From positions 1-56,790 of the forward strand of contig SHXD01000013.1 of assembly GCA_009693505.1 (NCBI GenBank): a stretch of 56,790 nucleotides of DNA. The letters run 5' to 3'. The DNA is from Limnohabitans sp. (GTDB lineage Bacteria; Pseudomonadota; Gammaproteobacteria; Burkholderiales; Burkholderiaceae_C). Position numbers and translations under genes: made by a program. How positions within the stretch are numbered: the first letter of the stretch is position 1; each line of letters opens with the position of its first letter. Of the stretch, positions 17,770 to 55,342 are shown piece by piece. The notes beneath the pieces are model-generated. The model did not search any database, had not been told where the DNA came from, and saw nothing but the letters and a program-made list of their open reading frames with translations.

Positions 17770-18579
17770 ATGTACACCGATTCTCATTGTCATCTCTCAT
17801 TTCCTGAACTGGTTGCGCAGTTGCCAGACATTCGCCAAAAAATGCAGGACGCACATGTCACGCGTGCTTTGTGCATTTGCACCACCATCGAAGAGTTTGA
17901 CCAAGTGCACCACTTGGCAAAGACTTACGATAATTTTTGGAGTACTGTTGGCGTACACCCTGACAATGAAGATATTTACGAACCTACGGTTCAAGATTTG
18001 GTTGAGAAGGGCCAATTGCCCCGTGTCATTGCCATCGGAGAAACAGGGCTTGATTACTATCAGATGTCAGAACGCAAAGGGGGCCGCGCCATTGAAGACA
18101 TGGAATGGCAGCGTGATCGATTTAGAAACCACATCAGGGCAGCACGCCAAATTCAGCTTCCCATGGTGATTCATACCCGAGCTTCTTCCGACGACACGAT
18201 TCGAATTTTGAAAGAAGAGGGTGAAGCAGGGGACGCAATCAGTGCCGGTGGCGTGTTTCACTGCTTCACTGAAACCCAGGCAGTGGCCAAGGCCGCCCTG
18301 GATTTGGGCTTTTACATCTCTTTTTCGGGTATTTTGACCTTTAAAACAGCCCAAGAATTAAGGGATGTGGCGGCATGGATGCCCCTCGATCGAATGCTGA
18401 TAGAGACTGACAGCCCTTATTTGGCGCCTGTTCCTTACCGTGGCAAGACCAACAACCCATCGTATGTTCCTTTTGTGGCCAAAATTTTGGCTGAGCTTAA
18501 AGGCATGACACCTGAACAAATAGGTGAGCTGACAAGCGCCAATTTCGATCGCCTTTTCCCTAAGTTACAGGCCTCTTAG
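17770..18579 (+). CDS. TatD family metal-dependent hydrolase
   Basis: A 269-residue amidohydrolase-fold protein with the metal-binding H-C-H (His6, His8), E in G-E-T-G-L-D, His in V-I-H-T-R, His in F-H-C-F-T-E, and the final Asp in I-E-T-D-S-P-Y-L-A-P. TatD-family members are metal-dependent nucleases and D-aminoacyl-tRNA deacylase-like enzymes. It follows holB by one base, the typical tmk-holB-tatD (YcfH) arrangement. It is the last gene of the + strand operon. Confidence 0.94.
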   Translation: MYTDSHCHLSFPELVAQLPDIRQKMQDAHVTRALCICTTIEEFDQVHHLAKTYDNFWSTVGVHPDNEDIYEPTVQDLVEKGQLPRVIAIGETGLDYYQMSERKGGRAIEDMEWQRDRFRNHIRAARQIQLPMVIHTRASSDDTIRILKEEGEAGDAISAGGVFHCFTETQAVAKAALDLGFYISFSGILTFKTAQELRDVAAWMPLDRMLIETDSPYLAPVPYRGKTNNPSYVPFVAKILAELKGMTPEQIGELTSANFDRLFPKLQAS

Positions 18580-18590
18580 CTATCAAATTC

Positions 18591-19271
18591 ATGTTTATAA
18601 TTTACTTTAAAAAACAATTTAAGTATTATGTTTATATTGGTTTTTTTATATATTCATCATTCAGCTTTGCGGGTTCGTATGAAGACTTTTTCATTGCCAT
18701 CAAAAATGATGAAATTAAAGTCATTTCGAGCTTATTTGTGCGTGGCTTTGATCCCAACACAGTTGATTTAAATGCAGAACCAGCCATTCTTAACACCCTA
18801 CGGCATGGCTCATTGAAATCATTTGAGTTGATTGCCAAGCACCCAAAGGTCAATTTAAATGTTCGAAACAGCCATGGCGAATCCGCCTTAATGCTGCTTT
18901 GCTTAAAAGGCGACCTCGAGCTCGCCAAAATGCTCATCACACGCGATGCAGACATCAACCATCCTGGTTGGACTGCATTGCATTACGCGGCAACGGGTGG
19001 TCACACGGCCATCATTCAGTTGTTATTGGAAGAAAGTGCCTACATTGATGCTGAATCTCCCAATGGCACCACGCCATTGATGATGGCCGCACGCTATGGC
19101 AATGAAAAAGCGGTGCAATTGTTGATCAATGAAGGCGCAGATCTGCAATTAAAGAATCAATTGGGATTGACTGCATTGGATTTTGCAGTTCAAGGACGAC
19201 GGCTCGAATCGATTAAGTTGCTGCAATCTGTATCTAGACCAACGGAAGAAGCCAATAGCAAGCAGAAGTAA
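18591..19271 (+). CDS. exported ankyrin-repeat protein
   Basis: A 226-residue protein with an N-terminal signal peptide (about 1-28, hydrophobic with aromatic residues, ending F-S-F-A-G) and four to five ankyrin repeats, for example G-E-S-A-L-M-L-L-C-L-K-G, G-W-T-A-L-H-Y-A-A-T-G-G-H and G-T-T-P-L-M-M-A-A-R-Y-G-N. It is probably periplasmic and binds a protein partner; no partner is indicated. The first 80 bases are strikingly AT-rich compared with neighbours, and the ribosome site is weak. It is the last gene before dif, 78 bases from it. The protein family is clear; the function is not. Confidence 0.85.
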   Translation: MFIIYFKKQFKYYVYIGFFIYSSFSFAGSYEDFFIAIKNDEIKVISSLFVRGFDPNTVDLNAEPAILNTLRHGSLKSFELIAKHPKVNLNVRNSHGESALMLLCLKGDLELAKMLITRDADINHPGWTALHYAATGGHTAIIQLLLEESAYIDAESPNGTTPLMMAARYGNEKAVQLLINEGADLQLKNQLGLTALDFAVQGRRLESIKLLQSVSRPTEEANSKQK

Positions 19272-19349
19272 GTCGGCTTTAGAAGCTATTGTTTCGATAG
19301 GCTACAACCGAGCGGTCACGCTTAATTGACTCAAATACCCGTCTTATAT

Positions 19350-19377
19350 ACTTCATACGATGTATATTATGTTAAGT
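19350..19377 (+). other. dif: dif-like XerC/XerD chromosome dimer resolution site
   Basis: 28 bp read as XerC arm ACTTCATACGA (19350-19360), central TGTATA (19361-19366) and XerD arm TTATGTTAAGT (19367-19377). The centre plus XerD arm matches the E. coli dif site at 16 of 17 bases from memory; the XerC arm is more divergent (4 of 11), as is common between phyla and classes. The arms are partly inverted repeats of each other (7 of 11). The site lies in a 184-base gap, and gene orientation switches from + to - exactly here, as expected at the point where replication forks meet. Confidence 0.8.
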
Positions 19378-19455: not shown

Positions 19456-21936
19456 TTAGGGGTTTAGTCTAAGGGTCTGAGTTGATCCGGTGGTAGACAT
19501 CCTTAAAGGACGGTACTTGGTTTGACCCCATTCAGCCTTCATGTCTTGGTAGCGTGAAGAAAAAGGATGGCCACTTTGACCAGTTTGGTAAATGAAGACA
19601 GACTCGTCTAGGTTGGCCAAATCGTAGACAGCCCTCATAGAGGCCGCGTGACGCGTTGCGAAAGGCACCGTGGCGCTACTGGTCCAGTATTGACCGACGT
19701 TGACCGTGAAGTTATCACCACCGCTGGGACCAGTGACGTCAAAGTATGTCGCCAAAGCTTTGACGTTGCCAAAAGGCCTGTGTGCGCTAAGGGCTGGATG
19801 AGCACGACCCCAATTCCAATCGGACACGTTAGAGCCCTGCATGGCCAAAATTTTATCCAATGCTGTGTCGAGTGCCTTGTTCATCAGCGCCTGGCATCCG
19901 GCATCACCACACCAAGATTTATCTTGAGTGGCTAAAACACCTTCGATAGCAGGACGAAAAGCGCGTTTACCAAACAAAGCTTTAAAACGTGCTTCACCCA
20001 ATTTGGGAATGAGAATGGCGCGTGTCACTTCGTCAATCCAAACGGCATAAATCAAAGCGCCGGCTGAATCACGGGTCATGTCACCCCTGAAAGATTTCAA
20101 TAGAGGCAATGCCTCACCTGCCTTTGCATGCTGAGACGAAAGTGTTTGCAGATATGGCAACAAACGGTCTGCAGCCAATGAATGCACATCGGCTTGGATG
20201 GCCTTCATATTGTTGGCATCAAATTTAGAGCCGGCAGAAAGCAATTGTGAAATTCGGTCAAAGCGCTCTGGACCTGTCCAGTCATGGGTTAAAAACTGCG
20301 CATAGGCAGGCGGCAAAATCTTTTGATTGGCAGTGGCATGCCATCCGCGTTTTTCAATGTTCGCTTGTGTCACCTCAGGCGTTTGCTCAAAAGGAACCCA
20401 AGACTGCCAATCGTATTGGCTTAACCAACCCGGTGCAGGCACCATGCCTTGTAAATCGTGGGCCGCTGAGCGAATGGGTACTTTGCCGATTGCTTTGAAA
20501 AGGACATGGCCTTGTGTGTCGGCCATCACCGCACTTTGCATCGGTGAATGGTTTTTTGAAAATGCCTGACGCAACTCAGCGACAGAATTTGCAAAATTGG
20601 CATCCATGCCCGCCACAATGGTTTGGTTGTCAACATCCAGGGCTGTCCAGCGTAACGCAATGGCGTATTTGTCCATGTTCAAAAACTGGGCATAGGCAGG
20701 TTGTACATCCGAAATAACAGGGCCATGGCGAGTGCTTCGCACCTTGATGCTGACATCGCCCTGCCCCTTCACTTTGATCACTTCATTGCGTATTTCAAAA
20801 GCTTTTTGGCCCAGCGGTGTGCGGTAATTGTCTTTGCCTTCCAAGGCCTCCAAATACAAGTCTTGAACATCAGGGCCCGTGTTGGTAAAGCCCCATGCAG
20901 CCTTGTTGGTTCGACCCAAAACAACTAATGGCAAACCAGGCAAAGTGGCGCCCACCACATCCAAAGCAGCATGAGCCTTGCCATCAGCAAATTGGCCTGC
21001 AGGCGCATGTAACCCTGCAAAATACCAAACAGCAGGCGCACTTAAACCCAAATGCGGGTCGTTGGCCAACAACGGAAAACCGGATTGTGTGTTGCTTCCT
21101 GGCACCACCCAGTTGTTGCTGCCCTTGCCTTCTAACACGCCCACATCCAAAGTGGTGGAGGCCAATAGTTGTTGTGTGGCCAAAGCTTTGGCTTGTGGCG
21201 ATGCCTCTTTGGCATATACCCCCAAATTTTGATAAAGGGCTGCAATGTCAACTTTGGAGCCGCGTGACTCACCTGGATACGGTGGAAAGAGCTTCCACAG
21301 ATCCTCTGTGTTCAGAGCTTGTGCAGACATCAAGCGGGCAAATTCATTGCCCCAGTTGCCACCCAAATCCAGTGCCATCATCAATGCCCAGCCCACGCTG
21401 TCGACAGCAGTCCAAGGCTTCATGGTCTTAGAAGGATTGATCCCCAAAATGACAAACTCTGGCGCACGCCATTGCGCACTGGCATACCCAGCTTGAACGC
21501 CTTCTGCGTAGGCTTCAAGAGCCTTCTGTGTGTTGGGCGGTAACTTGTCAAACTGTGCTTGCGCAGACTTCATGATGCCCAATGTGCGCATCAATTTGTC
21601 TGTTTCTAAAGTAGTGGGGCCTAGCCACTCAGACAATTCGCCGTGCATCACTTGACGATTGAATGCCAACTGCCAACCTCGTTCTTGAGCATGTACATAA
21701 CCAATGGCACGCCATGCATCCATCGGTGTCTTGGCATAGATATGCGTCACATCTGAAGCGTCGCGTTTAATCTCAACACCAGATGACAAGCCAGCCAGTT
21801 GAGCTTCACCTGACAGTGGCGCTATAGATTTGAGTAAATAAACTTGGAAAACGCCAAAGGCTGTTAAGGCCAGCAACACAAGGGCCAAAACGGCACGCAA
21901 AAACCAGAGGCCCCATCTAATTTTTTTGGATGGCAT
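19456..21936 (-). CDS. penicillin acylase family protein (Ntn hydrolase)
   Basis: An 826-residue exported precursor. An N-terminal hydrophobic segment (about 9-30) anchors or exports it. The alpha chain is followed by the self-cleavage site before Ser273 in K-G-S-N-N-W-V-V, the nucleophile that becomes the N-terminus of the beta chain; N-D-P-H-L-G and the later A-W-G-F-T-N-T support the family. Members hydrolyse amides such as penicillin G or acyl-homoserine lactones; the substrate cannot be told here. The frame extends to 21951, but the ATG at 21936 is preferred because it overlaps the upstream stop as TAATG. It is the last gene of a coupled run of five and ends about 80 bases from dif. Confidence 0.92.
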   Translation of the reverse strand: MPSKKIRWGLWFLRAVLALVLLALTAFGVFQVYLLKSIAPLSGEAQLAGLSSGVEIKRDASDVTHIYAKTPMDAWRAIGYVHAQERGWQLAFNRQVMHGELSEWLGPTTLETDKLMRTLGIMKSAQAQFDKLPPNTQKALEAYAEGVQAGYASAQWRAPEFVILGINPSKTMKPWTAVDSVGWALMMALDLGGNWGNEFARLMSAQALNTEDLWKLFPPYPGESRGSKVDIAALYQNLGVYAKEASPQAKALATQQLLASTTLDVGVLEGKGSNNWVVPGSNTQSGFPLLANDPHLGLSAPAVWYFAGLHAPAGQFADGKAHAALDVVGATLPGLPLVVLGRTNKAAWGFTNTGPDVQDLYLEALEGKDNYRTPLGQKAFEIRNEVIKVKGQGDVSIKVRSTRHGPVISDVQPAYAQFLNMDKYAIALRWTALDVDNQTIVAGMDANFANSVAELRQAFSKNHSPMQSAVMADTQGHVLFKAIGKVPIRSAAHDLQGMVPAPGWLSQYDWQSWVPFEQTPEVTQANIEKRGWHATANQKILPPAYAQFLTHDWTGPERFDRISQLLSAGSKFDANNMKAIQADVHSLAADRLLPYLQTLSSQHAKAGEALPLLKSFRGDMTRDSAGALIYAVWIDEVTRAILIPKLGEARFKALFGKRAFRPAIEGVLATQDKSWCGDAGCQALMNKALDTALDKILAMQGSNVSDWNWGRAHPALSAHRPFGNVKALATYFDVTGPSGGDNFTVNVGQYWTSSATVPFATRHAASMRAVYDLANLDESVFIYQTGQSGHPFSSRYQDMKAEWGQTKYRPLRMSTTGSTQTLRLNP

Positions 21937-22844
21937 TAAATGTGTCCCCAAACTAAAAATGCGTCTCGACCTTCAGTGGCCAAATCTACTTTGGCGCCGA
22001 TGGGCAAAAGTACTTTGGTTGAAACATGCCCAAATGGCAGTCCGGTCAAAACTGGAATTTTGAGCTGAGTCCGCAACCTGTTAATCACCGTCTTCAATTT
22101 GAAACCCTTGTCGTGAGACACCAATTGATAGGACGTGAATTGTCCAAACACAATAGCCTTTTGATTTTGCAAAACACCTGCGTTGAGCAATTGCGTCAAC
22201 ATGCGTTCAATTTTGTAAGGATGCTCACCCACATCTTCAAAAAATAAAACGCCCTTATTCATCAATGGAAAATAAGGGGTGCCCAGCAGAGAAGTGAGAA
22301 CCGCTAAATTGCCGCCCCACAAAACAGCATTGTTCACCTTCACACTTTTTTGCAAAGACTCAACAGGCATGCGCCAACCTGTGCCCTCCCCTTGCTCCAC
22401 ACACAAATCATCAAAGCACGCTTGCATGATGTCATCGGGTTCATTTTCAGATCCAAAGTCTTCTCCAAGCGCAGGGCCTTGCCATGTGATGCGCTGAGTT
22501 TTAGCATAGACTGCCAATTGAAAAGCGGTGAAGTCACTTAAACCCACATATTGGGTGCCATTGTCGATCGATTTTGCAATGGCTTTGTACGGCAATTGTG
22601 TCAACAGACGCGTCAGTCCATAACCGCCCCTGGAAATCATGGCAATGTTGGCGCCACTGGCGGCAGCACGACCGATGGCGTTCAATCGGGTTTCATCATT
22701 CCCTGCAAACCGCATGTGACTGCTCAGTGCATCAGGGTCAACTTGGACTTCATGACCCAGTGCTTCAAGGCGTTTGATGCCGCGCTTAAAAGCAGCCTTG
22801 TCACGCACTGCACTGGAGGGAGAAAAGATGTAGATGTGGCTCAT
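21936..22844 (-). CDS. ldcA: LD-carboxypeptidase (peptidase S66)
   Basis: A 302-residue cytoplasmic enzyme that removes the terminal D-Ala from murein tetrapeptides during peptidoglycan recycling. It shows S-R-G-G-Y-G-L-T-R-L-L (71-81), nucleophile Ser103 in G-L-S-D-F-T-A, the Glu-containing F-F-E-D-V-G-E, and the His in F-G-H-V-S-T-K, matching the Ser-Glu-His triad of S66. It has no signal peptide. The start overlaps the stop of the TadA-dehalogenase gene (ATGA at 22841-22844), and its stop overlaps the next start (TAATG). This places murein recycling in the same transcript as tRNA editing. Confidence 0.92.
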   Translation of the reverse strand: MSHIYIFSPSSAVRDKAAFKRGIKRLEALGHEVQVDPDALSSHMRFAGNDETRLNAIGRAAASGANIAMISRGGYGLTRLLTQLPYKAIAKSIDNGTQYVGLSDFTAFQLAVYAKTQRITWQGPALGEDFGSENEPDDIMQACFDDLCVEQGEGTGWRMPVESLQKSVKVNNAVLWGGNLAVLTSLLGTPYFPLMNKGVLFFEDVGEHPYKIERMLTQLLNAGVLQNQKAIVFGQFTSYQLVSHDKGFKLKTVINRLRTQLKIPVLTGLPFGHVSTKVLLPIGAKVDLATEGRDAFLVWGHI

Positions 22845-24247
22845 GAGGTGCTAACTTTGAAATACAGTACGGCTGATTCAGCAATGGATTGCCCGTGCTC
22901 TTGCACAAAATGGCCGGCCTGCGGCAACAGAATGGGTTCTGGGCAGCCTTTGATGTTTTGCTGCAGTTCACGCATCACAGGTTCTCCCAACACAGGGTCT
23001 TGAAGACCAATGGCCATCATGGTTTGGCCTTGCCACTGATCTCGCCAAAAGTGAAGGGCTTGTCTTGAAATTTCTGCGCCTGGGCTGTTTTCAAACTCTG
23101 GCACCATGGGTGGAAAAGCATGAAGCGCTGCGCGATGGCCACGGTCTTTGAAGGGGCTGTTGTAGGCTTGCGTTTCTGCATCAGACATGTGTTTGTTGCC
23201 CCGCGCAAAGAGCTTGGCCACATCAAAGTCGGGATTGGCTTGGCACCATTCACGCCAACTTAAAAAACCTTTTGACAAGGGCTGATTGCCTGTTGCCAAC
23301 GCCGTGTTCATCACCAACAGACCTGCAAATCGATCGGGCATGTCCATCGGCAAGGTCAAACCCAATATGCCGCCCCAATCTTGCACAACCAAAACGATGC
23401 GTTTCAAATCTAAACGTTCAATGAAATCTAGCAAAACTTGGCGGTGGAATTCAAAGCTGTGTTGATTGGCTTTTTTAAACTTATCACTTTTCCCAAAACC
23501 TATGAGGTCTGGCGCCACGACACGGTGGTCATCGGCTGTGAAAGTAGGAATCATCTTTCGGAACAAATAACTCCATGCAGGATTGCCATGCAAACACAAA
23601 AAAGTGATCTGTTGGTGATTCAATGAATCTTGAATTTCATTCGGAATTTCACTGCGACCTTCATCCAAATAGTGCAAGCGCAGACCATTCAGCGATGGCA
23701 AATCTGACACATAGTGGGCAGCCCATGGATAATCAGGAATTTCATCAAACCATTCGTCTGGTGGCCTTAAGGCATCTTCGCGCAGTGGGTTCATATTGAC
23801 ACGCTTTGGTTTGAAAAATTGTTGCAAAAGTTGTCGGCAATCTTGGGCTAATACGTCGCCTTTCACTTCTGTTTGGTGGTTGATGTCTTGATTGGAAAAC
23901 ACATTCAAAACAGAACCCGCCGCACCAGTTCTGGGCTCTGACGCACCAAACACCAGCCGAGAAATACGTGAATTGAGAATGGCCCCAGCGCACATGGTGC
24001 AAGGCTCTAAAGTGACATACAGCGTACAGTTTTCAAGGCGGTAATTGCCAATTGTTTTAGCAGCATCACGCAAAGCCATGATTTCCGCATGGGCAGTTGG
24101 GTCTGTGGTGCCAACAGGACCATTTCGACCTCTGCCTACAAGGATGCCATCTCGAACAACCACGGCACCCACTGGAACTTCACCGGCCTGCCCCGCTTCT
24201 TTGGCCAATTCAATGGCTGCTTGCATCCACTGTAAATCAGTGTTCAT
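22841..24247 (-). CDS. tadA: TadA tRNA adenosine deaminase fused to haloalkane dehalogenase
   Basis: A 468-residue two-domain protein in one unbroken frame. Residues 1 to about 148 are TadA, which makes inosine at tRNA position 34: zinc ligand His53 and catalytic Glu55 in H-A-E, then P-C-T-M-C with Cys83 and Cys86. Residues 152-468 are an alpha/beta hydrolase closely like DhlA of Xanthobacter: nucleophile Asp290 and halide-binding Trp291 in V-V-Q-D-W-G-G, second Trp331, Asp417 in G-L-Q-D-P-V-L-G, His446 in A-G-H-F-V-Q-E. Asn222 replaces the DhlA Glu56. The ATG at 24247 is preferred over 24274 because it overlaps the upstream stop as ATGA. An internal Met152 (23794) could start a separate hydrolase but has no clear ribosome site. 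Confidence 0.93.
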   Translation of the reverse strand: MNTDLQWMQAAIELAKEAGQAGEVPVGAVVVRDGILVGRGRNGPVGTTDPTAHAEIMALRDAAKTIGNYRLENCTLYVTLEPCTMCAGAILNSRISRLVFGASEPRTGAAGSVLNVFSNQDINHQTEVKGDVLAQDCRQLLQQFFKPKRVNMNPLREDALRPPDEWFDEIPDYPWAAHYVSDLPSLNGLRLHYLDEGRSEIPNEIQDSLNHQQITFLCLHGNPAWSYLFRKMIPTFTADDHRVVAPDLIGFGKSDKFKKANQHSFEFHRQVLLDFIERLDLKRIVLVVQDWGGILGLTLPMDMPDRFAGLLVMNTALATGNQPLSKGFLSWREWCQANPDFDVAKLFARGNKHMSDAETQAYNSPFKDRGHRAALHAFPPMVPEFENSPGAEISRQALHFWRDQWQGQTMMAIGLQDPVLGEPVMRELQQNIKGCPEPILLPQAGHFVQEHGQSIAESAVLYFKVSTS

Positions 24248-24885
24248 GAAACCAATCCGAGACGCCGCATCCAAAGGGCCAAAGCTTTTTCAGATTCCTT
24301 GCCTGCATCATAGGCGGCATGCATGGCAGCATGAGCCTCGGGGCGATGCTGGTTGAGCTTGACCTTGGTCTGCACTTTCAATAACTTCATCTCAAAGGCC
24401 ACGATGGCATTCATCATGGGATGCGTGTAGGTTTCTGGAAGGCCTCGCCATTGCTTCGCATAGGCCGGTTCGTGATCGGCAATCAATTGTTTCAACAGGG
24501 CATCTTTGGCCTCTTCGCCTTCTAAAATGCGAACTTCGGCTTTGACATGCACGGCCACATAACTCCATGTAGGCACCCTGATCAAATCAGGGTAGACGGC
24601 TGGCGACATGTAAGCCTGAGGTCCCATGAATGTCAAAAGGACTTCAGGCCGTTTGTACAACAAGCCAGCATGTGGATTGCCTTTGGCAACATGACCAAGC
24701 AAGATGTCTAGTTGCGCATCAGTTGCATGGGGCATCAACTTAATAGGGATGTGGCTGACGAATGGAAAACCTTCATCATCGTTCGAAATCAAACTGGCAA
24801 ATGGATTTTCCAAAATGATGTTTCTGGCATGCTCAGGATGATTGAACTGTTGAGGTAAATACATAAAGTTTTTTTGACTTTCCAA
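24244..24885 (-). CDS. FMN-binding PaiB-family protein
   Basis: A 213-residue protein of the PaiB family (FMN-binding split-barrel fold), annotated elsewhere as a negative transcriptional regulator after Bacillus PaiB. It shows M-Y-L-P-Q-Q-F near the start, the split-barrel segment N-P-F-A-S-L-I-S-N-D-D-E-G-F-P (about 26-40), and the terminal R-P-E-A-H-A-A-M. No helix-turn-helix is seen, so DNA binding is doubtful and a flavin-dependent reaction is possible. It starts 2 bases after the FemAB-like gene and overlaps tadA by four bases. Confidence 0.87.
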   Translation of the reverse strand: MESQKNFMYLPQQFNHPEHARNIILENPFASLISNDDEGFPFVSHIPIKLMPHATDAQLDILLGHVAKGNPHAGLLYKRPEVLLTFMGPQAYMSPAVYPDLIRVPTWSYVAVHVKAEVRILEGEEAKDALLKQLIADHEPAYAKQWRGLPETYTHPMMNAIVAFEMKLLKVQTKVKLNQHRPEAHAAMHAAYDAGKESEKALALWMRRLGLVS

Positions 24886-30592: not shown

Positions 30593-31747
30593 ATGACAGA
30601 TACGTTAAAAACTCAACTGACAGAAGCCACGTCCATACCAAGTCGCCGCCGTTTTCTCGGTCGGGCTGTCGCTGGGGTTGCTGGTACCACCGCCCTGGCA
30701 GCACCGATGGTCTCAATTGCCCAGGCTCCCATCGTTCTGAAAATGCAGGGCTCTTGGGGTGCCAAGGACATCTTCAATGAGATGGCCGAAGAGTACGTGA
30801 AGCGAGTCAATGATATGGCCGGTGGTCGTTTGCGTATTGATTACCTGGTGGCAGGTGCTGTGGTCAAACCGTTCGAGGTGATGGATGCTGTGTCCAAGGG
30901 CGTGCTTGACGCAGGCCATACCGTTCCGGTGTATTGGTATGGCAAGAGCAAGGTTGCTTCGCTGTTTGGCTCCGGCCCGATCAATGGCTGCGATGCACCA
31001 CAAACCTTGGCCTGGATTTACCGTGGCGGCGGATTGGCGCTCTATAACGAGTTACTTGCAAAACTCAATCTTGATGTGGTTGGCTTTTTTGCAATGCCAA
31101 TGCCAACCCAACCCCTGGGTTGGTTCAAGAAGGAAATCAAACAGGCTTCTGAGCTCAAAGGCCTCAAATACCGAACCGTCGGTTTGGCAGCCGATCTGTT
31201 CCAGCAAATGGGGGCAAAAGTCACCCAGCTGCCTGGCGGCGAAATCATCCCCGCATTGGAAAAAGGCGTGATCGATGCCTTCGAGTTCAACAACCCGACC
31301 TCGGACATGCGTTTCGGTGCCCAAGACGTGATCAAGAACTACATGATGGGTAGCTTTCACCAGGCCATGGAATTCTTTGAGATTTCCTTCAACAAGAAAA
31401 AATGGGACACGATTCCGAAAGATCTTCAAGCCATCCTGCAATACTCAGTCGAAGCGGCCAGTGCGTCAAACTGGTGGACCGGTATGGACAATTATTCGCG
31501 TGACCTGGCAGTCCTCCAAGACAAGCATAAAGTCAAAGTCATTCGCACACCCAAAGCCGTCATGAAAGCGCAGCTGGTAGCCTGGGATGCCATCACTGAC
31601 AAGCTCTCTGCAGAAGATCCATTCTTCAAGAAGGTGGTTGAATCTCAGCGTGCCTGGGCCAAGCGTGTGGCATACTACATGTTTGTCAATGAGGCTGATT
31701 TCGCCATGGGCTACGAGCACGTCTTTAAGACCAAGTTGCCCGCCTAA
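30593..31747 (+). CDS. dctP: TRAP transporter periplasmic substrate-binding protein
   Basis: A 384-residue DctP-type binding protein that delivers an organic anion to the DctQM permease. The N-terminus is a twin-arginine signal (S-R-R-R-F-L-G, then a hydrophobic stretch to about A43 in I-A-Q-A). Family features: L-K-G-L-K-Y-R near 190 (the Arg that binds the carboxylate in TRAP proteins), L-P-G-G-E-I-I-P-A-L-E-K-G-V-I-D-A (about 211-227) and N-N-P. The pattern resembles the subgroup that includes alpha-keto-acid and lactate binders, but the ligand is not decided. AGGAGT 8 bases upstream is a strong ribosome site. A hairpin follows the gene. Confidence 0.93.
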   Translation: MTDTLKTQLTEATSIPSRRRFLGRAVAGVAGTTALAAPMVSIAQAPIVLKMQGSWGAKDIFNEMAEEYVKRVNDMAGGRLRIDYLVAGAVVKPFEVMDAVSKGVLDAGHTVPVYWYGKSKVASLFGSGPINGCDAPQTLAWIYRGGGLALYNELLAKLNLDVVGFFAMPMPTQPLGWFKKEIKQASELKGLKYRTVGLAADLFQQMGAKVTQLPGGEIIPALEKGVIDAFEFNNPTSDMRFGAQDVIKNYMMGSFHQAMEFFEISFNKKKWDTIPKDLQAILQYSVEAASASNWWTGMDNYSRDLAVLQDKHKVKVIRTPKAVMKAQLVAWDAITDKLSAEDPFFKKVVESQRAWAKRVAYYMFVNEADFAMGYEHVFKTKLPA

Positions 31748-31768
31748 GCGCTTTTATTGAAGACCTCT

Positions 31769-31805
31769 GGGGGGCGTCCGAAAAGACGCCCCCCCTTTTT
31801 ATTTT
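31769..31805 (+). terminator. hairpin between dctP and dctQ (attenuator or mRNA stabiliser)
   Basis: A perfect 10-bp stem, GGGGGGCGTC (31769-31778) with GACGCCCCCC (31785-31794), six-base loop CGAAAA, then C and TTTTTATTTT. It is a textbook intrinsic terminator, placed inside the operon 21 bases after the dctP stop. It probably allows partial read-through, giving more binding protein than permease, and may protect the dctP message from 3' decay. Confidence 0.88.
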
Positions 31806-31816
31806 GTTATGACTGG

Positions 31817-32422
31817 ATGCCTAGTGTGGACTATCTAATTAAAGCAATTGACCAATTCAGCAAGACTGTTGGTCATGCCTTTGCATGGTGCGTCGTCATC
31901 CTGACAATTGGCACTTGTTACGAGGTGTTTATCCGCTACATACTCAATGATCCCACCAGTTGGGCATTTGACCTCAGCTACTTGATGTATGGCGCAGTGT
32001 TTTATATGGCTGGCGCCTATACGTTGTCCCGCGGCGGCCATGTTCGGGCCGATATGTATTACCGAAATTGGCAGGAAACAACACAGGCCAAGGTGGAACT
32101 GACGCTCTACATTCTGTTCTTTTTCCCCGGCATTTTGGCCTTGGTGGTGGCCGGTAGTTCCTATGGTCTCGAGTCGATGCGAATTGGCGAGATGAGCATC
32201 AACAGCCCGGCTGGCATTCCGATCTGGCCTCTCAAAATGATGATCCCCGTTGGTGCCACCCTGATCGGCCTGCAAGGTTTTGCCGAAGTCTTGCGTTGCT
32301 TTGTTTGCCTGCGTGATGGCGCATGGCCGGAGCGCTTGCAAGACGTAGAAGAGCTTGAGAACCAGTTGATCGCGCAACACGCCAACAAAAACCCCACTGA
32401 AACACAAGGAGTTTCGCCATGA
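31817..32422 (+). CDS. dctQ: TRAP transporter small permease
   Basis: A 201-residue membrane protein with four predicted helices (about 16-40, 52-72, 92-112, 140-160), typical of DctQ. It partners DctM in sodium- or proton-driven uptake. The open frame begins at a TTG (31757) inside the region before the hairpin; the ATG at 31817 gives a normal N-terminus and lies after the hairpin. Its stop overlaps the dctM start as ATGA (32419-32422). Gln/Glu-rich tail (E-E-L-E-N-Q-L-I-A-Q-H). Confidence 0.9.
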   Translation: MPSVDYLIKAIDQFSKTVGHAFAWCVVILTIGTCYEVFIRYILNDPTSWAFDLSYLMYGAVFYMAGAYTLSRGGHVRADMYYRNWQETTQAKVELTLYILFFFPGILALVVAGSSYGLESMRIGEMSINSPAGIPIWPLKMMIPVGATLIGLQGFAEVLRCFVCLRDGAWPERLQDVEELENQLIAQHANKNPTETQGVSP

Positions 32423-33765
32423 GCGATCCCTTAGTCGCCCTGGTCATGCTTGGCATCTTGGTATTCGTGATCTGTATTGGTTTTCCAGTCGCTTTCACCC
32501 TCATGGCTTTGGGAGTGGGTTTTGGTTTTTACGGCTACTTTCAGGCCGGCCAAGCTTTTTTTGATAACCGCGTTTTCTATCTTTTGACACAAAACACCTT
32601 CACGGTGTTGAACAATGACGCCCTCGTTTCGATTCCCCTGTTCCTGTTAATGGGTTACATGGTCGAGCGAGCTAACATTTTGGACAAACTGTTCCTGAGT
32701 CTGCAAGTGGCTCTGAAACACATTCCGGGCTCACTGGCAGTCGCTACCCTGCTGACCTGCGCCCTGTTTGCCACTGCCACCGGCATTGTGGGTGCTGTGG
32801 TGACTCTGATGGGCCTGTTGGCTTACCCACAGATGATCAAAGCAGGCTACGACAAACGACTGGCGGCTGGCGTGATTTGTGCCGGTGGTTGCCTGGGTAT
32901 CTTGATCCCACCCTCGATCATGCTGATTGTTTATGGTGCCATGGCCGGCCAGTCAGTGGTCAAACTGTACGCTGCCGCATTCGTCCCCGGCTTCATGTTG
33001 GCTTTCATGTACATCGCTTATGTGATGATCATTACCACCCTGAAGCCCGAACTGGCTCCAAAACTTCCCAAGGAAGAGGGAGACTTCCCCCTGTCCGAAG
33101 TGGTCGTGATGGTGATGAAATCCTTTTTTCCGCTGTCGATGCTGATCCTCTCCGTGCTTGGCGCGATTATGTTTGGTTTGGCAACGCCGACCGAAGCCGC
33201 TTCGGTCGGTGCTCTAGGCGCCACGATTTTGGCCGCATGTTACCGGACCCTGACCTGGCAAGGCATTCGGGAGTCGGTTTTCCTGACGGCACGCACCTCA
33301 GCCATGGTGTGCTGGCTTTTCGTCGGATCTGCCACCTTCGCGTCGATCTTTGCTTACTTGGGCGGAAACCAAATCATCAAAGAGTTTGTGCTCGGTATGG
33401 ACTTGTCCCCCCTCACCTTCATGCTGGTGGCTCAAGTCATCATTTTCCTCTTGGGTTGGCCGCTTGAGTGGACCGAGATCATTATCATCTTCGTGCCGAT
33501 TTTCTTGCCTATGCTGGACAATTTCGGAATCCACCCCATTCTGTTTGGCGTCTTGATCGCGGTTAACCTACAGACCGCCTTCTTGTCGCCGCCGATGGCA
33601 ATGGCGGCGTATTACCTCAAGGGGGTTAGTCCGCCATCGGTCAAGCTAAGCGAGATTTTCGCAGGGTGTATGCCGTTTGTTTATATCGTGCTGGTGACCA
33701 TGCTCTTGATTTATGTCTTCCCCGGCATTGCCATGTGGTTACCTAACACCCTCTACTCAAATTAA
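32419..33765 (+). CDS. dctM: TRAP transporter large permease
   Basis: A 448-residue polytopic inner-membrane protein, the transport channel of the TRAP system. Signatures include G-F-P-V-A-F-T-L-M near 15-23, the substrate/ion region A-T-G-I-V-G-A-V-V-T-L-M-G, C-A-G-G-C-L-G-I-L-I-P-P-S-I (about 153-166), and A-T-P-T-E-A-A-S-V-G-A (about 255-265), with P-I-L-F-G-V-L near the C-terminus. Leucine is coded mainly by CTG, unlike the TTG-rich housekeeping genes around the block. The amidase gene starts 3 bases after the stop. Confidence 0.95.
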   Translation: MSDPLVALVMLGILVFVICIGFPVAFTLMALGVGFGFYGYFQAGQAFFDNRVFYLLTQNTFTVLNNDALVSIPLFLLMGYMVERANILDKLFLSLQVALKHIPGSLAVATLLTCALFATATGIVGAVVTLMGLLAYPQMIKAGYDKRLAAGVICAGGCLGILIPPSIMLIVYGAMAGQSVVKLYAAAFVPGFMLAFMYIAYVMIITTLKPELAPKLPKEEGDFPLSEVVVMVMKSFFPLSMLILSVLGAIMFGLATPTEAASVGALGATILAACYRTLTWQGIRESVFLTARTSAMVCWLFVGSATFASIFAYLGGNQIIKEFVLGMDLSPLTFMLVAQVIIFLLGWPLEWTEIIIIFVPIFLPMLDNFGIHPILFGVLIAVNLQTAFLSPPMAMAAYYLKGVSPPSVKLSEIFAGCMPFVYIVLVTMLLIYVFPGIAMWLPNTLYSN

Positions 33766-33768
33766 TGC

Positions 33769-35100
33769 ATGAGTGTTGAACTCAGTCAGCTGAGCGCTAC
33801 CCAAGCAGCGCAGGCTATCGCCGATGGGCTAATTAGTTCGGAACAACTGGTTCAAGCCTGCCTTGATCGGATTCGCGAGATCGAACCCCAAGTGCAGGCT
33901 TGGCAGTTTCTCGATGAGAAACTCGCATTGGCACAGGCTCGCGCCCGTGACCAGGACCGGGCTGAGGGAAGGGCCATTGGCGTGCTCCATGGCATTCCGA
34001 TTGGCATCAAAGACATCATCGACACCGACGATATGCCGACCGAGGATGGAACGAGCTTGCATGCGGGCAGAACGCCGGCTAACGATGCCACCGTGGTAGC
34101 GTTGCTGCGTGCGGCCGGTGCGGTCATCATGGGGAAAACTGTCACCACCGAACTTGCCAACATGACCCCAGGCAAGACCCGTAACCCACAGAACCTGGAA
34201 CGCAGCCCTGGCGGTTCATCCTCGGGTTCGGCCGCAGCAGTGGCTGCGGGCATGGTCCCGCTGGCGATCGGCACCCAAACCTCGGGCTCGGTCATCCGGC
34301 CCGCTGCCTATTGTGGCGTTTATGGTTTCAAGCCAACCCATGGCCTGATCTCGCGCCATGGCATCTTGAAACTGTCTCGCACCTTGGACACTGTGGGTCT
34401 GTTTGCCCGCAGTCTGGAAGACTTGGCACTGCTGGCCGAACCGCTGATCATGCATGATGAAAAGGACTTCGATACCCGGCCTCGTGCGCGCATGCAGTTT
34501 CCCGCCATGGTGAAATCAGAGCCACCGCTCCCGCCGAGTTTGGCTTTCGTCAAAACAGAGGTTTGGGATCGGGCCGACGAAACCACTCAGCAAGCCTTTG
34601 CCGAGTTGATTGAAGAGCTGGGCGAACGTTGCAAGATCATCGAACTACCCACGTCACTCAAAGTGGCCTGGGAATTTCAACGCATTATTGCTGAGGCTGA
34701 AACGGCCTTTAACCTCGATTTGGAATGGCAAAAAGGGCAATCTGTGTTGTCGCCTTCATTGCGTGAGCGCCTAGAACGCGGCCGCAGCACCTCGGCACTG
34801 AGTTACCAAAAAGCGGTGGCGGCCATCCCCAAACTGATTGCCGAGTTTGACGAGGTGTTTGATAGCTTTGATGCCATCATCACTCCGTCCACCACCGGTA
34901 CGGCGCCGGGCCTAGATAGTACGGGCGATCCGGTGTTCTGCGTCCTGTGGTCCCTGCTCGGCATGCCTGCTGTCAATCTTCCTTTCATGACCGGTGTGGA
35001 CAACATGCCTCTGGGTGTCCAGTTGGTGGGCGCCCGGTTAATGGACGCCCGCTTGTTGCGAACCGCCAAGTGGTTGCAACAACGCGTCTCGCCCTCTTAA
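33769..35100 (+). CDS. amidase (amidase signature family)
   Basis: A 443-residue amidase-signature enzyme that hydrolyses carboxamides to acid and ammonia. The Ser-cisSer-Lys triad is visible: Lys in G-I-P-I-G-I-K-D-I-I-D-T (about 76-87), cis-Ser in the S-P-G-G-S-S-S-G-S-A-A-A-V loop (about 146-158), and nucleophile Ser in Q-T-S-G-S-V-I-R-P (about 168-176). Placed 3 bases after dctM, it probably acts on the compound imported by the TRAP system or a metabolite of it; that link is inference. The paired Asp-tRNA amidotransferase genes (gatB, gatC) are absent, so it is not GatA. The gene is clearly GC-rich (one 60-base line counted by hand has 44 G+C). Confidence 0.92.
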   Translation: MSVELSQLSATQAAQAIADGLISSEQLVQACLDRIREIEPQVQAWQFLDEKLALAQARARDQDRAEGRAIGVLHGIPIGIKDIIDTDDMPTEDGTSLHAGRTPANDATVVALLRAAGAVIMGKTVTTELANMTPGKTRNPQNLERSPGGSSSGSAAAVAAGMVPLAIGTQTSGSVIRPAAYCGVYGFKPTHGLISRHGILKLSRTLDTVGLFARSLEDLALLAEPLIMHDEKDFDTRPRARMQFPAMVKSEPPLPPSLAFVKTEVWDRADETTQQAFAELIEELGERCKIIELPTSLKVAWEFQRIIAEAETAFNLDLEWQKGQSVLSPSLRERLERGRSTSALSYQKAVAAIPKLIAEFDEVFDSFDAIITPSTTGTAPGLDSTGDPVFCVLWSLLGMPAVNLPFMTGVDNMPLGVQLVGARLMDARLLRTAKWLQQRVSPS

Positions 35101-45851: not shown

Positions 45852-48791
45852 TTAAATCGTACGAGCGATCTCTTTGACTTCGAAGAATTCCAGTTGGTCG
45901 CCCACTGAAATGTCGTTGTAGTTTTTGAGTTTGATACCGCACTCGAAGCCTTCTTTGACTTCGCGAACGTCGTCTTTGAGGCGTTTGAGTGAATCGATGT
46001 CGCCGGTGTAAATCACCACGTTGTCGCGCAACAAACGGAACCTGGAAGAACGCGTAACTTGTCCGGTGGTAACCATACAACCCGCAACCGTACCAATTTT
46101 GGAAGCCACAAACACGGTCCGAATTTCGGCCATGCCAATGACTTCTTCTTTTTGTTCGGGCGCCAACATGCCTGACATGGCGGCTTTCAGTTCATCGACA
46201 GCGTCATAAATGATGTTGTAGTAATTGATGCTGACGCCATTGCTTTCGGCTTGTTTGCGCGCACCTGCATCGGCACGCACATTAAAGCCAATGACGACCG
46301 CTTTGGAAGCGATGGCCAAATTGATGTCGGACTCGCTAATGCCACCTACCGCGGCATAGACCAATTGAACTTTGATCTCATCGGTAGAAAGTTTGAGTAA
46401 AGAAGCGGCCAAGGCTTCTTGCGAACCTTGTACGTCTGCTTTAACAATGATGGGCAAGGTTTTGACTTCGCCAGCGCTCATGTCTGTGAACATGTTTTCC
46501 AACTTGGCGGCTTGCTGCTTGGCCAGTTTGGTGTTGCGGAATTTGCCAGCACGGTAAGTGGCAATTTCACGGGCGCGACGTTCGTCATTGAGCACCATGA
46601 ATTCGTCACCAGCTTGCGGTACTTCCGTCAAACCTTGAATCTCAACAGGAATGGAGGGGCCTGCCGATTTGATGGCCTTGCCGTTTTCATCCAACATGGC
46701 TCGAACACGGCCAAATGTTTGACCCGCCAACACCACATCTCCCGTTGACAAAGTGCCCGACTGAACAAGAATGGTGGCCACAGGACCACGACCTTTGTCC
46801 AAACGCGCTTCAATGACCAAGCCTTTGGCAGCTGCGGCCACAGGCGCACGGAGCTCAAGTACTTCAGCTTGCAATAAAACTTGCTCTAGCAAAGCATCAA
46901 TGCCCGCACCCGTTTTGGCGGAGACACCCACGAAAGGTGATTCACCACCGAACTCTTCAGGCACCACTTGTTCTGCTACCAACTCGCCTTTGACGCGGTC
47001 AAGGTTGGCATCGGGCTTGTCAATTTTGTTGATGGCCACAACGATAGGAACACCTGCTGCTTTGGCATGCTTGATGGCTTCTTTGGTTTGCGGCATCACA
47101 CCGTCATCGGCGGCAACCACCAAGATGACGATGTCGGTAGCTTTTGCACCCCGTGCCCGCATGGCCGTAAACGCCTCGTGGCCTGGCGTGTCCAAGAAGG
47201 ACACCATGCCACGTGCTGTTTCAACGTGATAGGCACCAATGTGCTGGGTAATACCACCGGCTTCGCCAGAGGCCACTTTGGCACGGCGAATGTAGTCGAG
47301 CAACGAAGTTTTGCCATGATCGACGTGACCCATGACGGTGACCACTGGCGCACGCGGCAACAATGGCGCATCACTTTGTGACACCTCTTCATCGGTAAAG
47401 GCTTCTGGATCGTCTAGCGCAGCAACGACGGCTTTGTGACCCAACTCTTCCACCAAAATCATTGCGGTGTCTTGGTCCAAAGGCTGATTGATGGTGACCA
47501 TCTGACCCAATTTCATGAGCTGCTTGATGACCTCAGACGCCTTGATAGCCATCTTGTGAGCCAACTCGGCAACGGTGATGGTTTCTGGCACGTGAACTTC
47601 AATGACGCGTGTTTCCGCAGGTGCGGCTTGCACATGCTCTTCTCGATCACGCTCGTTGCCTTTGCGGTTTTTAGGACCACCGCGCCAGTTGTTTCTACCA
47701 ACGCCACCACTGGTATCACCACGTGTTGGAATGGCTTTCTTTTTGGCAGGATCACCCGCCCAACTTGACGAAAGCTTGGCAGATTTAACTTCCTTGTTGC
47801 CGCCTGGTGCAGCATCCTTGGTCTCTGTGGTTGCGGCTGCTTTTTTAGAAACAGCACCTGGTACTTGGACTGGCTTGTGAAGTGTTCCTTTGGCGGTTTT
47901 AGGATCAACTTTAGGAACTTCTTTAGGCGGTGCCTTTTTAGCCGGACCACTCATCATGGCGCGAATGGCTTCTGCTTCAGCCAAAGCTTTATTGCGGCGT
48001 TGGTTCAGATCGCGTTCACGAACTGCTTCATCTTCAATAATGGCTTTTGCATCGGCATCAGCCTGATCTTCTGCAACTTTGTTCTTGGCAACCTTGTCAG
48101 CTTTGAACAAGGCTTCAGCATTCACGCGTTCGTTTTCGGCAGATTGGGAAATAGAGGGATCAGCAGGCTTAGAAGCAGCATTGATGCTGTCTGCCTCGTG
48201 CTGAGCAGCGGCGACTTTTGCGCTGCGAATGGCAGTGGCTTGGGCCACAAGCTCTTCGGGTGATTGCGCAGCTGCGACTTCATCAATGTCAGATGCCTTG
48301 GCTTTAGCCTCTTCGCGTTTGGCCAATTCCTTGGCTTCACGCTCACGGCGTTTTTCGGCCAACTCTTCTTCTTGACGCCTTAGTAACTCGGCTTGACTGC
48401 GGGCTTCCTCTTCGCGCCTTGCCAATTCAGCATGGTTGATGAGGGGCGCGGCGGGCTCGGCAGCCGGCGTCGATGTTGTTTCAGCTTCGTCGTCGCGTTT
48501 AATGAATGTGCGTTTTTTACGCACTTCAACTTGGATGGTTCTTGCTTTGCCTGTGGCATCGGCTTGTTTAATTTCGCTGGTAGATTTTTTCACCAACGTG
48601 ATCTTTTTACGTTCGCCGGCGACGGTGCCATGACTGGCTTGCAAATAGCTTAAAAGCATTTGCTTGTCGTGTTCAGTCAGCGGGTCGGTGGCCGCTGATT
48701 TGTCGACACCCGCTGAGCGCAACTGCTCTAGCAAGGTATCAGGTGATTTTTTGAGTTCGCTGGCAAACTCGGCGACAGTATTACTGGACAT
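45852..48791 (-). CDS. infB: translation initiation factor IF-2
   Basis: A 979-residue factor that places initiator tRNA on the ribosome. The N-terminus has the IF2-N fold (about 1-55), then a long Ala/Glu/Lys-rich charged linker (about 90-400) as in other proteobacterial IF-2 proteins, a second IF2-N fold near 400, the GTPase domain with V-D-H-G-K-T (G1) at about 485-492, D-T-P-G-H and N-K-I-D, then domains II-IV. The open frame starts at 48836, but the ATG at 48791 matches the family and has GGAGG 11 bases upstream. nusA ends 23 bases before it. Confidence 0.96.
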
Positions 48792-48814
48792 ATGGGGTTC
48801 TAGCCTCCTTGAGA

Positions 48815-50299
48815 TTAGGCCTGACCAGCGAACCAATGTTCACGGGCTTTCATGATCAGGGCGGTGGCTTCACCATCGGTTTGTCCGGTGATGTCGGTGA
48901 GTTCGTCAGTGGCCAAGTCGGCCAGATCGTCGCGTGTAATGACACCCGCTTCAGCCAATTTGGCAATCAGTTCTGGGGTCAGGCCTTCAAGATCGCGAAG
49001 ATCTTGAGAGACATCGTCAACACTTTCTTCCCGCACGATTTCTTGTGTGAGCAGGGCATCCTTGGCGCGAGTGCGCAGCTCGTTCACAGTATCTTCATCG
49101 AAGCTGTCGATCTCCAACATTTCTTGGATGGGCACATAAGCCACTTCTTCCAAGCTTGCGAAGCCTTCTTCAATCAGAATGTCTGCAATTTCTTGGTCAA
49201 CATCCAATTTGTCCATGAACAATGCGCGAATACCGGTTGTTTCTTCAGCTTGCTTTTGAGCTGATTCGGCGGCATCCATGATGTTTATTTTCCAACCAGT
49301 CAGGTCAGAAGCCAAGCGAACATTTTGTCCGCCACGGCCAATGGCAATGGCCAAGTTTTCTTCATCAACCACCACGTCCATGGCGTGCTTTTCTTCGTCC
49401 ACCACAATGGATTGAACGTTGGCAGGCGCCAAAGCGCCAATGACAAATTGAGCTGGATCTTCACTCCAGAGCACAATGTCAACACGCTCGCCAGCCAACT
49501 CATTTGTGACGCCATTGACGCGTGTACCACGAACACCCACGCAGGTGCCGATAGGATCAACGCGTTTGTCATGTGACAACACAGCAATCTTGGCACGTGA
49601 ACCGGGGTCGCGTGCGCAAGATTTAATCTCCAACAAGCCTTGTTCAATTTCGGGAACTTCTTGGCTGAAAAGTTCAATCATGAATTCGGGTGAGGAACGA
49701 GACAAGATAATGGGCGCACCCCGCAAGGTGAGATCGACTTCCATGATCATGGCGCGAACGCGGTCACCATTGCGAAGGTTTTCTTTGGGAATCATTTCGC
49801 TGCGGCGAAGGCGACCTTCAACACGGCCAGATTCGACAATGATGTCGCCCTTGTCCATGCGCTTGACGGTACCAACCAAAATTTTCTCGCCGCGCGCCAT
49901 GAACTCGTTGAGTAACATTTCGCGCTCGGCATCGCGAATCTTTTGCAAGATGACTTGTTTGGCCGCCATAGCGCCAATGCGGCCAATAGGCAATGATTCA
50001 ACTGACTCTTCAATGTACTCGTCGACTTCAATGTCCGCAATCTGCTCGACAGCCTCAAACAGCAAGATTTCTTGGTCAGGCAATTGCAGGCCAGCTTCAT
50101 CTGGCACCACATGCCAGCGGCGGAAAGTTTCGTAGTTACCGCTGTCACGGTCAATGGCCACGCGAATATCGACGTCGCCTTCGTAAAGCTTTTTGGTGGC
50201 TTGGGCTAAAGCAGATTCAACGGCACCAAAGACGATGTCACGTTCAACGTTCTTTTCACGTGAGATGGCTTCAACCAGCATCAACAGTTCGCGGTTCAT
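48815..50299 (-). CDS. nusA: transcription termination/antitermination protein NusA
   Basis: A 494-residue RNA-polymerase-associated factor. N-terminal domain ([12 protein letters not shown]), an S1 domain (about 135-200, [13 protein letters not shown]), two KH domains ([15 protein letters not shown]), and acidic repeat regions at the C-terminus (L-x-x-L-x-G-L-T-P). It modulates pausing and termination. It starts 1 base after the rimP stop, the normal rimP-nusA-infB order. Confidence 0.97.
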
Positions 50300-54357: not shown

Positions 54358-54364
54358 GGTGCGC

Positions 54365-55342
54365 TTACTGCAAACGAATGCGTGGATCAGCCAAGGTGTA
54401 GCTGATGTCGGTCAAAATCAAACCAAGAATGTACAGAAATGAGCCGATGAAAACCATCGCTCGAACGATGGCAAAGTCTTGACCTGCAATGGCTTCAATC
54501 AAATAACTGCCCAAGCCTGGAATAGCAAAAAATGATTCAGTGATCAAACTGCCCATGAACAGCAAAGGAATCACGGCCACAGAGGCACTCAAGATGGGGA
54601 TAAGTGCATTTCGCAGAACATGAACCAAAAGGACCCTGCTTTCAGACAAGCCTTTGGATCTAGCGGTTCGAACATAGTCCTTGCCAATTTCTTCCATGAA
54701 AAGCGTTCTGTTAAATCGCACCTCGCCACCCAGTCTAGACAAGATACCCACAGCAATTGGCAGCACCAAGAAGCGCCAAGCATCCATCCCAGGCGCAAAG
54801 CCCGATACGGGCATGAGCTGCAACACACGCGAGAACATGAACTGCCCCATCACGATGAAAAACAGCGACGAAATGGACATGAACACCACGCACAAAACGG
54901 TGCCCCAAAAATCAAGGTAGGTGGCTCTAAAAAATGCCAAGCCCAAAGCCAACACAATCGACACGCCTAAGCCAACAACAAAGGTCGGTAAAGCCAACGC
55001 AATAGAAGGCCCAGCACGCCTCACAATTTCTGAAGCGATGTCCCGGCCACTGTCTGCACGACCAAAGTCAAAGGCAAACATTCGCAAAGAGCTGTCCATG
55101 AATAACGTATTGCTTAATTTTGCAATGCCCTGTTCTTGTTCATTGAAAAACAAAGGCCGGTCATAGCCCCGTTCGGCCTTCCATTTTTCGATGGCATCGG
55201 GTGTGACGCGCTTACCACCCAATTGCATGCGTGCCATGTCGTCTGGCGTATTCACTTTGAAAAAAAGGACAAAGGTGAGTAAGTTAATGCCAATCAAAAT
55301 GGCCAATCCATAGGTCAACTTGCGTGTTAAAAATCGCAGCAT
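54365..55342 (-). CDS. oligopeptide ABC transporter permease (DppB/YejB-like)
   Basis: A 325-residue inner-membrane permease. It begins with an N-terminal helix (L-R-F-L-T-R-K-L-T-Y-G-L-A, 2-14), then the conserved L-G-G-K-R-V-T-P-D-A-I-E region, and D-Y-V-R-T-A-R-S-K-G-L-S, the EAA-type loop that contacts the ATPase. The open frame starts at 55483, but the ATG at 55342 overlaps the upstream stop as TGATG and gives the normal N-terminus. It is the upstream permease of the operon. Confidence 0.93.
   Translation of the reverse strand: MLRFLTRKLTYGLAILIGINLLTFVLFFKVNTPDDMARMQLGGKRVTPDAIEKWKAERGYDRPLFFNEQEQGIAKLSNTLFMDSSLRMFAFDFGRADSGRDIASEIVRRAGPSIALALPTFVVGLGVSIVLALGLAFFRATYLDFWGTVLCVVFMSISSLFFIVMGQFMFSRVLQLMPVSGFAPGMDAWRFLVLPIAVGILSRLGGEVRFNRTLFMEEIGKDYVRTARSKGLSESRVLLVHVLRNALIPILSASVAVIPLLFMGSLITESFFAIPGLGSYLIEAIAGQDFAIVRAMVFIGSFLYILGLILTDISYTLADPRIRLQ

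Follow-up and report, generated by a model that had tools for sequence, protein, structure and literature searches.

A dif site lies between an ankyrin-repeat gene and a penicillin-amidase gene

The window analysed here is a stretch of 56,790 nucleotides that corresponds to an entire contig (C35) of a Limnohabitans sp. assembly. Its features of interest are collected in Table 1, together with related loci in other replicons; published work is cited throughout from excerpts of the papers. A preliminary description, made from the sequence alone, had placed a 28-bp dif-like site in an intergenic gap. Its coordinates and sequence proved to be exact, and the gap is the one between the ankyrin-repeat ORF and the penicillin-amidase ORF.

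Table 1. Features around the dif site of the window and loci of the dif-associated element elsewhere
Feature	Position	Strand	Evidence
tatD, constant left neighbour of dif	17770..18579	+	Pfam TatD_DNase; tatD-dif order
Ankyrin-repeat gene (ank) between tatD and dif	18591..19271	+	Pfam Ank; homologue there in most examined loci
Gap from ank to dif, empty here and filled by a transposon in five congeners	19272..19349	.	Neither transposase match nor right end in own genome
Chromosomal dif site, 28 bp	19350..19377	+	Sequence; single match in own genome; presence in congeners
XerC-side arm ACTTCATACGA, presumed XerC-binding by analogy with E. coli	19350..19360	+	Equals consensus of 28 genus sites
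Central hexamer TGTATA	19361..19366	+	Sequence
XerD-side arm TTATGTTAAGT, presumed XerD-binding by analogy with E. coli	19367..19377	+	Identical to E. coli dif at 10 of 11 bases
Penicillin-amidase family gene, right neighbour	19456..21951	-	Pfam Penicil_amidase; varies among relatives
Element copies at dif (G007, G025, G034, G321, G037, G461)	L143-L149, L266, L295-L299		XerC side of dif; right end 38-40 bp away
Plasmid copies and relatives of the element near 11-6-11 repeats	L293 8231-11452; L280 25192-27723; end of L281 with start of L307; L302, L303, L312, L313

The site follows an 11-6-11 layout in which ACTTCATACGA and TTATGTTAAGT flank the centre TGTATA, and its XerD arm is conserved. Compared with E. 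coli dif, centre and XerD arm together agree in 16 of 17 bases, the same figure as in the preliminary description, the XerC arm in 4 of 11 and the whole site in 20 of 28. The XerC arm had been called diverged, which is correct with respect to E. coli; a degenerate arm is, however, ruled out, since 28 genus sites have ACTTCATACGA as their consensus and it differs by one base from the arm of the Rhodoferax ferrireducens dif, which in the excerpt of PMC2731167 is identical to the window's site in 27 of 28 bases. The consensus, which equals the window's 28-mer exactly, was derived from 30 fetched loci including the window's own, minus L004 and L011, the second sites of genomes G013 and G054, whose left arm is unrelated.

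When the 2,838,849-base assembly was searched with the 17-base half (centre plus XerD arm), a single match with at most 3 mismatches was found, namely the site itself; the assembly has 2.84 Mb in 107 contigs and is 97% complete, so that a second dif in the missing sequence is possible. The reversed 17-mer, used as a control, had no match in this assembly at the same threshold. A search for further copies, as the preliminary description had suggested, thus returned none within 3 mismatches of the 17-base half. The 17-mer with at most 2 mismatches is contained in 51 of 60 genomes of the genus; as the window's own genome is one of these, the figure for congeners is 50 of 59. The remaining 9 congeners have no match at this threshold, and profile scans revealed more diverged dif-like sites in two of them, G032 and G043. 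The same site is present in the corresponding gap of related genomes, where the preliminary description had proposed to look for it. Family-wide, the 17-mer was matched in 181 of 299 genomes, again with at most 2 mismatches.

Additional dif-like sites were seen in a few relatives. G013 (L154, C10:741515) and G054 (L155, C2:247017) have second sites in the same orientation as the resident dif and 74 and 78 kb away from it, with centre and XerD arm intact and an unrelated XerC arm. In six genomes of other genera (G063, G092, G288, G163, G119 and G230) pairs of dif-like sites in the same orientation lie ~7-12 kb apart; our guess is that this spacing reflects filamentous prophages at dif, for which such a size would be expected.

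Genes for the recombination machinery were sought in the same genome, as had been advised for xerC, xerD and ftsK. It encodes an FtsK gamma domain (98.4 bits, cut-off 30.6) and a 327-aa protein whose best model is XerC, although its score of 321.7 bits is just under that model's cut-off of 335.15. XerD was found only as two pieces at contig ends, the N-terminal one at the end of C68 and the C-terminal one at the start of C7, a split that we take to be an assembly break; a weaker partial match of the XerD search lies on C80. By analogy with E. coli, XerC would bind the left arm of dif and XerD the right one, and FtsK would pump DNA along GGGNAGGG motifs that point to dif from both replichores. 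On meeting XerD at the septum, FtsK would elicit strand exchange between the two sister copies of dif, which would return a chromosome dimer to two monomers ahead of cell division. Binding, activation and recombination at the Limnohabitans site are all modelled on the E. coli system in this account.

The dif site is at the junction of the two replichores

GC skew across the window is mostly positive to the left of dif and mostly negative to the right. The cumulative skew reaches its maximum of 329 at 19,802; the value at 19,363 is 301, and between 13,480 and 21,338 the curve never falls more than 30 below the peak, so the inflection anticipated in the preliminary description does occur near the site. 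With 500-bp blocks, the strongest split falls at 14,500 and not at dif itself, and it exceeds all 5000 block shuffles. The reported flip of the gene strand bias is real as well: among ORFs of at least 130 aa, chosen greedily, 16 are on the plus and 2 on the minus strand to the left of dif, compared to 22 on the minus and 6 on the plus strand to the right. The wording 'nearly all' is too strong for the right side, where four plus-strand ORFs form a block (30593-35100). Three segments of the window show a strong local AT skew, with values of -0.196 (32001-34000), -0.212 (47001-49000) and +0.285 (53001-55000).

The wider context was surveyed in G006, a congener assembled in one contig, which has the dif 17-mer at 1,829,354-1,829,370. 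In the 400 kb around dif the maximum of its cumulative skew is at 1,834,647. In skew samples of 20 kb the sign changes from negative at 300 kb to positive at 375 kb and beyond, roughly opposite dif, and the samples at 1 and 75,001 are at odds with a simple two-arm pattern. Within 200 kb on either side of dif, the E. coli KOPS motif GGGNAGGG occurs at strand ratios of 18:1 (left) and 1:16 (right); in the window the corresponding ratios are 3:0 and 1:4. Moreover, among the 14,746 gapped octamers with at least 30 occurrences in 1.08 Mb of G006, GGGNAGGG ranks first by leading-strand excess (82:5). In view of its polarity around dif and its top rank in G006, the genome makes use of this motif, which converges on dif. 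The preliminary description had the site mark the replication terminus, a wording that is better taken to mean a position at the replichore junction: replication would end near rather than necessarily at dif, as is argued in the excerpt of PMC3025954.

In this family dif follows tatD

The position of dif relative to tatD is kept. In 48 genomes of the genus, the window's own included, both are on one contig, and dif is downstream of tatD in the same orientation in every case and no more than 2 kb away in 43; a further 3 genomes have the two on separate contigs. Both were found in 70 of 110 genomes sampled across the family, on one contig in 56. Of these, 41 have dif downstream within 5 kb and in the same orientation, 2 have it close but inverted and 13 have it elsewhere. 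The two inverted cases (G106, contig C18, and G139, contig C1) have dif 0.7-1.3 kb downstream of tatD. The tatD-dif order is seen, for example, in Limnohabitans sp. Rim11, Polaromonas glacialis, a Rubrivivax MAG and Derxia gummosa; in the last, dif comes right after tatD, ank not having been found. The right side of dif is variable, and in L037, L047 and L049 no amidase gene was seen there. According to the excerpt of PMC2731167, dif has no specific genetic environment. This statement does not hold in the present family, and the kept tatD-ank-dif order departs from the published view of a dif without a particular neighbourhood. Further to the right, on the minus strand (22841-24274), a single ORF combines a TadA-type tRNA adenosine deaminase (residues 13-165) with a haloalkane-dehalogenase-type hydrolase (167-472), and the same long match is found in relatives, e.g. 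L040-L045 and L047-L049.

We conclude that the 28-bp site is almost certainly the chromosomal dif of this Limnohabitans-type bacterium, because its 17-base half is single in the genome and present in 50 of 59 congeners, the whole site agrees with R. ferrireducens dif in 27 of 28 bases, the skew switches here and machinery genes are present. It could alternatively have been left behind by a Xer-exploiting element (IMEX) as an attachment remnant, or be a plasmid-type Xer site. The second dif-like sites of G013 and G054 and the closely spaced pairs in other genera would fit such an origin, which we nevertheless regard as very improbable in view of the single copy, the conserved tatD-ank position and the location at the skew switch. 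As a resident dif, the site fixes the terminus on this contig and extends the standard FtsK-XerCD layout, KOPS included, to a freshwater genus. It shares with proteobacterial dif/XerCD systems, as exemplified by R. ferrireducens in the excerpt of PMC2731167, the 28-bp 11-6-11 layout, the centre, the XerD arm, the single copy and the skew switch; what differs are the one XerC-arm base and, in the window's family, the position after tatD. Taken by itself, the dif site is ordinary.

A transposon repeatedly inserts beside dif in congeners

In three congeners (G025, G007 and G034) dif is 19, 31 and 46 kb away from tatD. All three carry the same inserted element, whose copies are mostly 97-99% identical and partly rearranged, with adjoining host DNA that is only 82-83% identical. 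IMEX are mobile elements that integrate at dif through XerCD and would lie between two dif-type sites. The regions in G007, G025 and G034 contain one dif-like site each and none just behind ank, and the inserts are therefore not IMEX.

The left end of the element has ORFs of 689, 337 and 617 aa, the right end genes for a tyrosine recombinase and a KfrA-domain protein, and the interior includes ORFs that look like metal-efflux genes, as judged from the ORF starts. Searched singly against Pfam and NCBIfam, the 689- and 617-aa proteins have no match, and the 337-aa protein hits Pfam AAA_22. Once aligned with their plasmid homologues and used in profile searches of the PDB, the 689-aa protein matches TnsB (E 3.9e-8) and the 617-aa protein TniQ (E 4.6e-5); the alignment of the 337-aa protein had no PDB match. 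The Aquincola homologues of the three proteins carry the Pfam domains rve_3, AAA_22 and TniQ. Judging from these similarities, the element is a Tn7/Tn5053-like transposon with a TnsB/TniA-type transposase, a TnsC/TniB-type AAA ATPase and a TniQ/TnsD-type selector.

Both ends were seen in five copies of 18,551-44,947 bp (G007, G025, G034, G321 and G461, in this order below), and all five have terminal repeat arrays and a 5-bp duplication. The duplications (ATCCC, GTAGG, TTCAA, TCCTT and TGGTC) match within each copy and differ between copies. All five elements are on the XerC side of dif and in one orientation, their right ends being 39, 38, 38, 39 and 38 bp from the dif 28-mer and the spacers unrelated in sequence. 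From the ank stop to the left end there are 14, 104, 19, 6 and 17 bp. In G321 the transposase gene is broken. The 18-base right end has matches in 9 of the 90 genus genomes searched, 7 of which also have the element's repeat array; G459 and G046, which have the right end and no array, were dropped before counting. Six of the seven elements are at dif, the sixth being that of G037, 40 bp from dif and with its left end beyond the contig, and the one in G059 is elsewhere. The transposon thus uses dif repeatedly and with a fixed geometry. In the window's own genome there is neither a match to the transposase nor an 18-base right end, and beside its dif the target of this dif-seeking transposon is vacant.

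A seventh copy and several plasmid relatives end near other 11-6-11 repeats

The G059 copy shares its contig with ParA-, ParB- and Rep-type genes. It lies 35 bp from a perfect 28-bp inverted repeat of 11-6-11 layout that is unlike dif; past the repeat there are an ORF of 241 aa and then a gene for a 785-aa tyrosine recombinase. Relatives of the transposase were found in 68 of 72,556 plasmid records. We fetched 18 of the 68, of which 16 are distinct after removal of H15 (pHG1 again) and H18 (pMTS2, a near-duplicate of pRK1-1).

In 6 of the 16 records a right end was identified and has an 11-6-11 repeat with 1-3 mismatched pairs outside it. The distance is 39 bp in both Aquincola and Polaromonas, where the repeat directly precedes a tyrosine recombinase gene, and 32 bp in C. 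necator C39, 34 bp in pRK1-1, 32 bp in KK10 and 32 bp in copy b of pBB2. With G059, three of the repeats are thus near tyrosine recombinase genes. About 0.7% of random sequences would show such a repeat, with no more than 3 mismatched pairs, if any one of six positions is allowed, a figure that serves as a guide rather than a test, as the 32-40 range was set post hoc. Variovorax and Robbsia, both distant relatives, have a right end and no 11-6-11 repeat at 32-40 bp. For the other 8 records (P. hospita, PGU19, PREW-6R, Caballeronia, pHG1, B. aenigmatica, Azonexus and Janthinobacterium) no right end was found by repeat. The transposases of the six positive records are 41-57% identical to the Limnohabitans one and those of the two negative ones 30-31%, with six of the eight endless ones above 41%. 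The right end of pBB2 copy a abuts copy b, and there is no repeat outside it. At the identified ends of the Aquincola and Polaromonas copies, no matching 5-bp duplication was seen. By their appearance, the repeats on plasmids are putative tyrosine-recombinase sites.

The transposon family may sense site-bound recombinases

We consider it likely that this TniA-TniB-TniQ family hunts tyrosine-recombinase sites, placing its right end 32-40 bp from a 28-bp 11-6-11 site, which would be dif on chromosomes and a resolution site on plasmids. It would be the tyrosine-recombinase counterpart of the Tn5053 res-site hunters, settling at the terminus without breaking dif and gaining vehicles through the plasmid sites. 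Because the target sites differ in sequence and share their layout, the selector probably senses the recombinase-DNA complex. TniQ would dock on a site occupied by its recombinase pair, TniB would span a fixed length from the docked TniQ, and TniA would join the transposon ends at the distance set by TniB.

Alternatively, the transposon might read the DNA of dif itself, as Tn7 TnsD does with attTn7, the plasmid repeats being coincidental or the targets of other selectors. Tn7-like elements do insert at a fixed distance from a target sequence, according to the excerpt of PMC8649781. Between lineages the identity of the TniQ-like protein is just 20-25%, so each could read its own sequence, and the plasmid repeats are putative recombinase-binding sites only. 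Such direct reading is possible, though we are inclined to doubt it: the G059 copy lies 35 bp from a perfect repeat that is unlike dif, with a tyrosine recombinase gene one ORF on, and two plasmid relatives end 39 bp from repeats that directly precede tyrosine recombinase genes. That the fixed distance stems from one ancestral insertion inherited together with its dif has next to no probability and is refuted by the five different 5-bp duplications, the unrelated spacers and the host DNA of only 82-83% identity, even though the element itself shows mostly 97-99% DNA identity among three hosts.

The transposon would be a Tn7-like element that targets a dimer-resolution site, and as such would add a target type to protein-guided transposition and tie its cargo to chromosome termini and plasmids. 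Whether a transposon selector reads site-bound recombinase would also become directly testable.

Relation to known site-hunting elements

Res-site hunting by Tn5053/Tn402 was reportedly described by Minakhina in 1999, and another study (PMC9765430) reportedly deals with a dif-integrating element of Legionellales. IMEX and the transposon both occupy the dif region; the transposon, however, is bounded by ends and duplications of its own, and only one dif is present after its insertion. The IS1202 family (ISAjo2 group) comprises dif-site hunting insertion sequences of Acinetobacter, which, according to the excerpt of PMC10132070, resemble the present element in being beside dif or pdif, on the XerC side, in a fixed orientation and with a 5-bp duplication. 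They are ~1.5 kb long, have one transposase and insert 5 bp from the XerC arm, whereas the element here is 18.6-45 kb long, has predicted TniA, TniB and TniQ and is 38-40 bp from dif, which sets it apart from IS1202. Tn5053/Tn402 elements share tniA-tniB-tniQ, the 5-bp duplication and a target that is another replicon's resolution site (excerpt of PMC7765201). Their targets are serine-resolvase res sites and they carry tniR, in contrast to the tyrosine recombinase at the right end and the putative tyrosine-recombinase sites seen here. Tn7-like elements with TnsD/TniQ selectors have TnsB-like and TniQ-like proteins, terminal-repeat arrays and a fixed target distance in common with it, and the whole word dif is absent from the main text of the two papers concerned (PMC8649781 and PMC10293859). 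Hunting of dif is thus already known for the single-transposase IS1202 family, and that of res sites for Tn5053/Tn402. In the open-access literature, where most subscription papers are absent, we found no description of a Tn7/Tn5053-like dif hunter, including in excerpts of PMC10293859, PMC8649781, PMC11472951, PMC12907356, PMC8373256 and PMC12893667.

Related sequences near dif in other genomes

In seven genomes of other genera (G146, G205, G357, G325, G443, G388 and G382; L267-L272 and L278) a tyrosine recombinase gene and a KfrA-domain gene are found ~0.2-1.2 kb from dif. They are 61-68% and 33-38% identical, respectively, to the pair at the right end of the transposon, and the same genomes yielded no relative of the transposase. 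The pair may be an independent dif-associated one or a transposon relic. Finally, in G459 (L300, ~1,001,618-1,001,864 of its contig) two transposon-type ends enclose ~0.25 kb, with flanks that do not match; the segment looks like a miniature derivative of the transposon.
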